Below are positions 25,989 to 27,650 of a stretch of DNA of 27,650 nucleotides, piece by piece. The notes beneath the pieces were generated by a model. The model did no database searches and had not been told where the DNA came from. It saw only the letters and a list, made by a program, of their open reading frames with translations. The stretch comes from a virus: the IMG/VR virus record IMGVR_UViG_3300001450_000204, positions 1-27,650 of that record. One strand, written 5' to 3'. Position 1 is the stretch's first letter. The number at the start of each line of letters is the position of its first letter. Made by a program: the position numbers and the translations under genes.

Positions 25989-26154
25989 TATCTTTCTCCT
26001 TTTGACAAATTCTGCAATGACACCTTTCATCGATTAGTGTAAATGTTAAACAAGTCTCTCGGTAATAAATGAATATTTTTACGTGTTCGTCATGTTTCAT
26101 TAGTTGTAACATAATGTAATTCCTTTTTAAGTTTTTGAATTTGCCTTTAGCCAT
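25978..26154 (-). CDS. Small Cys-containing early protein, start uncertain
   Basis: 58 aa from ATG 26154-26152 (weak AAGAAG before it), or 44 aa from ATG 26112-26110, which has AAGGA upstream. Both share the frame. The N-terminal extension is basic (MAKGKFKNLKRNYI). The C-terminal part has ERCHCRICQKEK, a Cys/His cluster that could bind zinc. It overlaps the 48-aa gene by 11 bases. It is the most upstream minus-strand gene in this block, next to the noncoding hub. Confidence 0.5.
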   Translation of the reverse strand: MAKGKFKNLKRNYIMLQLMKHDEHVKIFIYYRETCLTFTLIDERCHCRICQKEKDNVI

Positions 26155-26203
26155 CTTCTTTTGTTATATGTATATAGAGATGATTTGGACAGAACAACTT
26201 ACC

Positions 26204-26356
26204 ACAGGGTTCTTTATTTTTGTCACTTACTTCATTACAATGACATAGCCTGAGGAAGGCAGTGGAGTTATGCCTTCAGCAGGCGTATCTAATCATTCGT
26301 TTTTAATGATTCGATGGAATTGTGATAAGCTAATTTACTACAATAAAGAACTCTGT
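26204..26356 (+). other. RNA domain closed by a 15-bp long-range stem
   Basis: 26204-26218 pairs with 26342-26356 at 15 of 15 positions if one G-U is allowed. It encloses hairpin 26249-26260/26272-26283 (10 of 12 pairs, tandem A-G/G-A mismatch) and hairpin 26291-26297/26305-26311 (AATCATT/AATGATT, seven pairs). This nesting is typical of a folded RNA domain rather than of protein-binding DNA. Confidence 0.55.
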
Positions 26357-26359
26357 TCT

Positions 26360-26415
26360 AGGTCAATGGTGCCTTTGCTTTTGATGACCGTCCTTGTCAT
26401 CTAACCATTGCACCT
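26360..26415 (+). other. Bulged two-step stem-loop
   Basis: AGGT-CAATGGT just after 26359 pairs with ACCATTG-C-ACCT ending near 26415, 11 pairs with one bulged base. It encloses an inner stem GATGAC/GTCATC with a seven-base loop. It follows the 153-nt domain directly. The whole unit looks superficially tRNA-like in size but has no T-arm or CCA-type acceptor. Confidence 0.5.
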
Positions 26416-26504
26416 AAATCCTCTGGTCCAAAGCGTGTCTATATATATATAACCTACCACTTAACGCCATGATTTAGAGGAGTCATGACTTGAGTTCTGT
26501 AGAG

Positions 26505-26537
26505 TAGCAGGTTCCCATAGCTTTTAATGGGAAGCTA
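26505..26537 (+). repeat. RNA hairpin repeat, copy 1 (TAGC-AGG-TTCC type)
   Basis: TAGC (26505-26508), bulge AGG, TTCCCAT (26512-26518), eight-base loop, ATGGGAA (26527-26533), GCTA (26534-26537). All 11 pairs are perfect. Copy 2 at 26633-26661 keeps the outer stem, the AGG bulge and the TTCC start but changes the upper stem with compensation. Confidence 0.65.
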
Positions 26538-26549
26538 CGACAACGAGAC

Positions 26550-26603
26550 AAGCTATGAAGGTTTCCTGACATGGGTTTAGACAGGGAACCGATTTAATAG
26601 CTT
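26550..26603 (+). other. Nested stem between the two hairpin repeats
   Basis: Outer AAGCTAT (26550-26556) pairs with ATAGCTT (26597-26603), inner GGTTTCCTG (26560-26568) pairs with CAGGGAACC (26582-26590) with one U-G. The outer stem uses the same AGCTA word as the flanking repeats, so alternative pairings among the three are possible. Confidence 0.6.
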
Positions 26604-26632
26604 GGTAACATTATGAAATGCATAGTTCCGAA

Positions 26633-26661
26633 TAGCAGGTTCCAAGCTTGCTTGGAAGCTA
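26633..26661 (+). repeat. RNA hairpin repeat, copy 2
   Basis: TAGC (26633-26636), bulge AGG (26637-26639), TTCCAAG (26640-26646), four-base loop CTTG, CTTGGAA (26651-26657), GCTA (26658-26661). The upper stem differs from copy 1 yet stays fully paired, which is the pattern of a conserved fold rather than a conserved sequence. Confidence 0.65.
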
Positions 26662-26802
26662 TGAGAGATTACTACATACTTAACATGGAGTGCTCGTGGA
26701 CAGAATCAGTTGTGATTAGCGTAGTCATTTCCGAAACTCGTAGCACATGGTCTATCGTGTGTAGGAGTTGTCGTGTAAATGATACAGCTTCCCTCTAAAC
26801 GT

Positions 26803-26844
26803 ATATGGAGTGTCTACCATGTGTTGTATTTGGTAGACCCATAT
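26803..26844 (+). other. 14-bp hairpin with three-base bulge
   Basis: ATATGG (26803-26808) pairs with CCATAT (26839-26844), then a bulge AGT (26809-26811), then GTCTACCA (26812-26819) pairs with TGGTAGAC (26831-26838), loop of 11. As in the TAGC-AGG repeats, the bulge is three bases on the 5' side. Confidence 0.6.
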
Positions 26845-27027
26845 TCACAGTGTATCTTCCACACCGTATGGTTGTAATCTAAGGGTGTGTCAGGTGTCCA
26901 CCCTAATGGACTTCTATCTTCGGCTGTAGCAATTGCACATGTTTCATCGTCAATTGTACAAAGCCTCATGTACTTGTTAGAATCTGTTAGGTAAGGACGA
27001 CATACGAATTAATCTTTCAGATTGTAG

Positions 27028-27049
27028 CCAAAAGGATGTACACTTTTGG
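27028..27049 (+). other. Hairpin at the 3' border of the structured region
   Basis: CCAAAAG (27028-27034) pairs with CTTTTGG (27043-27049), eight-base loop. Followed by TGCATTAATC, not a T-tract, so a weak case for a terminator. Sequence becomes AT-rich after it, marking the edge of the candidate RNA. Confidence 0.45.
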
Positions 27050-27199
27050 TGCATTAATCACAGCTAGAAATATAATTAGAACAAAGGTTTAGTTCTTTAA
27101 TGGTATAGGTAGTATACTCCATCTTTTGGGATATAATTAGTTACTAGTAGTACCACATCATAGTTTTTCTTTTAGCTATTTTAGCTCTAATATACTCTT

Positions 27200-27227
27200 A
27201 TAATAGTAAGGGGGGGTTGCTTTTGAA
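27200..27227 (-). promoter_or_regulatory. Possible minus-strand promoter in the hub
   Basis: TTCAAA (27227-27222), 16-base spacer holding a C7 run, TATTAT (27205-27200). It matches sigma70 boxes only partly. If used, it would transcribe the minus strand through the structured region towards the early genes at 26154. No better minus promoter was seen between 26155 and 27299. Confidence 0.3.
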
Positions 27228-27299
27228 CTTGTACTGTGTTATTAATAGATACTACATAATTATATTAGAGGGAAAATAGGGATTAGTACACAATATCAC

Positions 27300-27328
27300 T
27301 TGACTTTTACCAAAAAGTATGATATAAT
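27300..27328 (+). promoter_or_regulatory. Strong sigma70-type promoter for the plus-strand module
   Basis: TTGACT (27300-27305), 17-base spacer, TATAAT (27323-27328), then ATTAGTATAG. Optimal spacing and a perfect -10. Expected start near 27335, giving a leader of about 165 nt before ATG 27500. Same type as the three minus-strand promoters. Confidence 0.88.
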
Positions 27329-27351
27329 ATTAGTATAGATGTAGATAATAA

Positions 27352-27499: not shown

Positions 27500-27650
27500 A
27501 TGGGTAGAAGAAGTATAGAAAAAACAAATGAAATAAGACAAGCTGCTGGATTACCTTTAAAAAAGAGGAAACTACCAAAACACTACAAGAAGAAAAGTGA
27601 TGCTATTCTACCAGTATCCAAAAAGAAAAGACATCAAGAAATATTAGCTG
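27500..27650 (+). CDS. Basic hypothetical protein, 5' part only
   Basis: ATG 27500 with TTGGAG at 27489-27494; 50 codons to the window edge without a stop. Begins MGRRSIEKTNEIRQAAGLPL and continues KKRKLPKHYKKKSD, very Lys/Arg-rich. First gene of the plus-strand module driven from 27300. The basic N terminus and position would suit a DNA-binding protein, but I do not recognise the family and the rest is missing. Confidence 0.75.
   Translation, partial: MGRRSIEKTNEIRQAAGLPLKKRKLPKHYKKKSDAILPVSKKKRHQEILA

Follow-up and report, generated by a model that had tools for sequence, protein, structure and literature searches.

Between the divergent early and late genes of a marine phage genome fragment we identified a gene-free, strongly folding region that probably encodes a stand-alone, structured non-coding RNA of about 900 nt, belonging to a new family and read from the + strand. 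The fragment (hereafter the window, meaning the whole stretch of DNA analysed) comprises 27,650 nt. Its DNA polymerase shares 65% identity with those of Methylophilales phages MEP401 and MEP402, and by sequence comparison the phage is a relative of these Methylophilales (OM43) phages, classed in Zobellviridae. Replication genes run leftward and structural genes rightward, with the structured region between them. Homologues of the first late protein of one related contig, L070, were found in L101, L075, L022, L104 and L049, and from its place the first late gene product is possibly the small terminase subunit. The candidate RNA would consist of a 5' three-way-junction domain built from stems P1, P2 and P3 (26163-26453), followed by a 3' domain in which the stems are local (26454-27066). 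We infer that it would be transcribed as a separate molecule, with a promoter close to where the first early gene starts, and that its function would be that of an RNA, not of a leader or DNA element. Coordinates are collected in Table 1.

Table 1. Features at the early/late junction of the window, including the predicted parts of the candidate RNA.
Feature	Position	Strand	Remarks
Source stretch, IMG/VR record IMGVR_UViG_3300001450_000204	1-27,650		
First early gene, 58 aa	25978-26154	-	P1 lies 8 nt from its start codon
P1, 5' arm; AT-rich outer stem that closes off the 5' domain	26163-26193	+	Pairs with 26426-26453
P2, long branched hairpin with clear homologues	26202-26358	+	Covariance model match
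P3, second hairpin of the three-way junction	26359-26416	+	MFE and centroid folds
P1, 3' arm	26421-26453	+	Inverted repeat; folds of relatives
3' domain, many stems	26454-27066	+	GC 0.42; z -4.7 on +, -6.3 on -
Hairpin with motif TAGCAGGTTCC...GGAAGCTA, copy 1	26504-26541	+	Repeats D7, D17, I10
Hairpin with motif TAGCAGGTTCC...GGAAGCTA, copy 2	26630-26665	+	Repeats D7, D17, I20
Separate conserved region upstream of the late operon, not structured RNA	27067-27299	+	75% identical to L022 across 221 nt
Late promoter, sigma-70 type with extended -10, TTGACT-17-TATAAT	27300-27328	+	11/12 matches
First late gene (fragment), MGRR protein	27500-27650	+	73% to L022

An earlier sequence-only reading had described 26155-27299 as a stretch between divergent early and late units with no credible ORF, raised GC and at least ten stems, and each of these observations was borne out. 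The flanking genes are divergent. The longest ORF is 61 aa, which is at chance length (mean longest ORF in dinucleotide shuffles, 62 aa; P = 0.48); no ORF of the region matched a PHROG, and the 61-aa ORF had no match among phage records. GC content is 0.40-0.42 at 26201-27000, compared with 0.28-0.37 nearby (about 0.33). More than ten stems were found, including a 28-nt arm pair (26163-26190/26426-26453, 86% complementary) and a 50-nt arm pair (26197-26246/26314-26363). The segment 26204-27060 folds at -269.9 kcal/mol on the + strand (z = -6.2 against shuffles) and at -240.7 kcal/mol on the - strand (z = -5.1). A 300-nt scan of the window placed the + strand fold excess at about 26100-27000, with z down to -6.4, whereas control segments elsewhere were weaker on this strand (lowest z, -4.1); one coding control reached z = -5.2 on the - strand. 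The excess stops at about 27060. The proposed extent therefore stands for about 26163-27066 and fails for the last ~230 nt (27067-27299), where z is 0.0/-0.8, that is, no fold excess.

This downstream stretch has a different character. Regions similar to it occur in L104, L049, L070, L101 and L075, and it contains a run of seven G at 27210-27216. A + strand run of six or seven G characterizes the window, L022, L104, L049, L070, L101 and L075, while a C-run/G-run hairpin followed by a conserved stretch is found in MEP401, L016, L010, L017, L062, L071 and L079. As read from the sequences, both downstream types occur in combination with different upstream elements, suggesting separate, recombining modules. 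The late promoter motif is also present at the junction of relatives, and its core, TTGACTTT-N10-TATGATATAATATTA (27300-27332 in the window), is nearly invariant. In MEP402 (L003), a stretch resembling this promoter lies directly before the scaffold and capsid genes (31051-31095).

The G-run raises an alternative in which a structured transcript and the run of seven G together form an R-loop primer at a junction origin, like RNA II of ColE1. In MEP401 and MEP402 the GC skew reaches its minimum at the junction, and the G-run is shared by the seven loci named above. However, skew tracks gene direction and thus offers no independent proof, the G-run is present without the RNA in L022 and L104, and a C5/G5 hairpin takes its place in other relatives. 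No DnaA-box-like motif was found on the + strand. We consider a replication RNA improbable.

To trace homologues, junctions of relatives were gathered through the amidoligase neighbour, the late promoter motif and the first late protein. At the same divergent junction, three IMG/VR contigs (L070, L101 and L010) contain elements of 536-538 nt that are homologous to one another and whose P2 aligns to 26202-26358 of the window. A covariance model of P2 (R1), built from L070 and L101 only, matched this segment of the window on the + strand only (55.8 bits, E = 9e-11) and also matched L010 (E = 1.7e-5); both E-values are rough owing to a short calibration. Folds of the four 5' domains have a common P1/P2/P3 three-way layout: the P1 stem is also present in the three contigs, and a hairpin occupies the P3 position in each of them at the same place but with a different sequence. 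The conserved 3' domain of the three contigs (~230 nt) has no similarity in the window, whose own ~600-nt 3' domain differs and showed no similarity among the related loci or elsewhere in the window. Folding energy is the one ground on which this domain would be assigned to the RNA, and its better z on the - strand counts against a + strand RNA. The domain includes two hairpins sharing the flanks TAGCAGGTTCC...GGAAGCTA, as direct and inverted repeats, and a search of IMG/VR with this pattern returned none.

Wider searches yielded little beyond these members. Compared with phage genomes by distant blastn, the region gave short matches, mostly at the promoter, and the 225-aa neighbour protein used as a probe gave none. 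The pattern ACTTAAAAAGGTAGATGC retrieved extra loci (L115-L120) with 18-25 nt in common, which we read as chance. A pattern from the 3' strand of P2 retrieved five extra loci in IMG/VR, none matching the R1 model, and a slightly stricter form of it retrieved none in GTDB genomes. Long stretches without genes also occur at the junctions of ICP2, Slicky01 and Alcaligenes phage QDWS535, but their + strand folding shows no comparable excess; single segments there reach z = -6.4 and -8.9 on the - strand. Among these distant phages, the gene-free junctions of Slicky01 (L181, 11305-12956) and ICP2 (L180, 26089-27841) measure 1.65-1.75 kb.

Base pairing in P2 has been maintained through sequence change. 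Across L070, L101 and the window, pairing holds in 93.8% of cells, and compensatory changes on both sides are seen at 9 of 48 pairs, a count that none of 500 shuffles reached (mean 3.0) and that slid structures did not approach (at most 2). This alignment was fitted to the structure of the model; a free MAFFT alignment gave 7 of 44. For the whole element in L070, L101 and L010, double changes affect 16 of 175 pairs (shuffle mean 5.3; 0 of 500), and 96.9% of cells are paired, a percentage biased towards the structure because the structure was derived from the same three sequences. With four P2 members, the covariation is strong per pair and comes from few lineages. Homologues at the same junction and covarying pairs, the checks that the sequence-only reading had proposed, were thus both found, and selection at the RNA level on the junction element is supported by these comparisons. 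The earlier proposal of a new large phage RNA holds in respect of homologues, compensatory changes, strand and the lack of an Rfam match, and does not extend to the last 230 nt.

The element also appears to move and to be dispensable. Its 3' domain is near-identical in L010 and L070, while their P2 domain and adjoining downstream element differ, suggesting exchange as a unit. Frequent loss of the region had been named in advance as evidence against an RNA; this is seen in part, as the element is missing from two close relatives, L022 and L104, which marks it as accessory, not essential. The presence/absence pattern, the apparent module exchange and the preservation of fold over sequence fit an accessory infection RNA whose folded body binds and occupies a host or phage factor, a role that we propose tentatively. 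Candidate partners would be an RNase, an RNA-sensing defence protein or, as in GOLLD and ROOL, another copy of the RNA.

We then considered which strand is the RNA. The lower + strand energies are partly due to a G+T excess, so the energy difference between single strands was dropped as proof of strand in favour of mismatch and substitution tests. Among 13 elements, the isolated mismatches that interrupt Watson-Crick-only helices comprise, in + strand letters, 25 G.T and 5 A.C; some of these elements are related and the + strand is modestly G+T rich, making the count evidence rather than proof. The window alone contributes 4 G.T and no A.C, and the + strand structure of L070, L101 and L010 has 33 G.U against 5 A.C cells. 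Given this excess and the match of the window to the model on the + strand, the RNA strand is most likely the + strand, the direction of the late genes. The same observations bear on a purely DNA-level element without RNA function, such as a cruciform or a packaging or recombination site. Long inverted repeats, good folding on both strands and the ending of some related contigs near the palindrome centre would suit such an element, but the bias of G.U over A.C, with wobble-permitting substitutions on one strand, and the + strand model match speak against it, leaving it very unlikely.

The relation of the transcript to its neighbours is less straightforward. No good + strand promoter was found upstream of 26163 in the window or most relatives, L101 being the exception, and no clear terminator follows 27066. 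A regulatory leader running into the late operon, or an antisense RNA acting in cis on the first early gene, either of which would help the early-to-late switch, is the alternative to be weighed here. The structured region points in the late-gene direction and stops 230 nt short of the late promoter, with no clear terminator between, and in six relatives (MEP401, L020, L049, L079, L008 and L009) one arm of a palindrome is antisense to the entire first early gene. However, a strong separate late promoter lies downstream, the palindrome of the window and of L070, L101 and L010 excludes the early gene, and L022 and L104 keep the late region without the element. A leader or antisense role thus seems rather unlikely, and a stand-alone RNA remains our preferred reading.

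In these six relatives the same site is occupied by an imperfect palindrome of 769-881 nt (in MEP401, L004 42000-42987 joined with 1-300). The first early gene lies in the left arm, and the right arm repeats it as an inverted, degenerate copy; the arms are about 70-76% identical and in some cases include the terminator of the gene. The nearest sequence to each copy is its own gene or the corresponding copy in a very close relative. L079 and L008 have insertions in the copy in common, indicating that the gene copy predates their split while the arms changed together, and 15 of 32 gene differences were followed in both copies. Gene conversion between the arms could be an alternative source of this joint change. 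In four of the six palindromes, two of which (MEP401 and L020) are near relatives, substitutions in the copy strongly favour + strand RNA pairing (30-34 against 3-6 in each), whereas the copies of L079 and L008 show no pairing-preserving bias. Regular mismatch spacing was sought in the giant palindromes and was not found. A gene copy was also sought in the window, and none was found; the window is not of the MEP401 type. This bears on the view that the region is a decayed gene or a chance structure: although one arm is a degenerate gene copy in the six relatives, no copy of any gene was found in the window, and the compensatory changes and conserved layout, with covariation already contradicting it for the 5' domain, make that view exceedingly improbable.

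Further structured elements lie at the junctions of L071, L075, L017, L016/MEP402 and L062. In MEP402, the annotated hypothetical gene gp01 (L003 1-216) falls in the counterpart of the structured L016 junction, and its annotation may be spurious. The junction of MEP401 (1,092 nt) is unannotated, and the words non-coding, promoter and intergenic are absent from the main text of the published description of the two phages (PMC10580990). The contigs of L009 and L019 end at or near the palindrome, which suggests that the palindrome breaks assemblies and that such elements are under-reported. It is conceivable, although we hold it doubtful, that the junction hosts fast-evolving giant RNAs that are born by inverted duplication of a neighbouring gene, drift into ornate RNAs and are kept for a long double-stranded body, perhaps occupying host RNases or RNA-sensing defence proteins. 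If true, the gene-copy palindromes would show a visible route for the birth of large structured RNAs.

Finally, we compared the region with known large RNAs. Searched against all 4227 families of Rfam 15, including GOLLD, ROOL, HEARO and IMES, the window gave no match, as did 12 related junction loci. The sequence-only reading had likened the region to GOLLD and ROOL; kinship with them found no backing, the window being unmatched by either covariance model at the gathering score and at E up to 5. GOLLD and ROOL often lie near tRNA genes and self-assemble into nanocages. Like ROOL, the candidate RNA is phage-borne, several hundred nt long, rich in stems and of unknown function; in addition to the lack of a model match, it differs in having no tRNAs nearby, none having been found in the window. 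With GOLLD it shares a phage genome, a length above 800 nt and two unequally conserved domains, but the window is linked to its relatives by a 5' hairpin, whereas the conserved part of GOLLD is the 3' part (PMC12286853).

In phage ICP1, whose genome has no tRNAs, the most abundant transcript is an RNA of ~800 nt that arises from a gap of 1 kb devoid of ORFs (PMC7567579). This large RNA, encoded between gp139 and gp140, resembles our candidate in its origin from such a gap (~1 kb) in a lytic phage with no tRNA island. It belongs to another phage, adjoins the lysis cluster and has shown expression; our candidate, known from sequence alone, is likened to it by description. The inter-inverted-repeat transcript of the PLE satellites of Vibrio is likewise non-coding and abundant; it contains inverted repeats and is similar in antisense to the leaders of genes (PMC7567579). 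It is a satellite RNA of other anatomy, and it resembles the window less than it does the gene-copy palindromes found in the relatives. The candidate RNA is best called a new family, similar in size and style to GOLLD, ROOL and the ICP1 RNA.

These results add a family with defined members and a conserved genome place. To our knowledge, large structured RNAs described from phages are very few, and for none of them has a function been proven. Because MEP401 and MEP402 are isolated phages of the same group with a cultured host, Methylophilales FZCC0133, expression, structure and deletion are testable, and the gene-copy palindromes of the relatives may offer a view of the origin of large structured RNAs.
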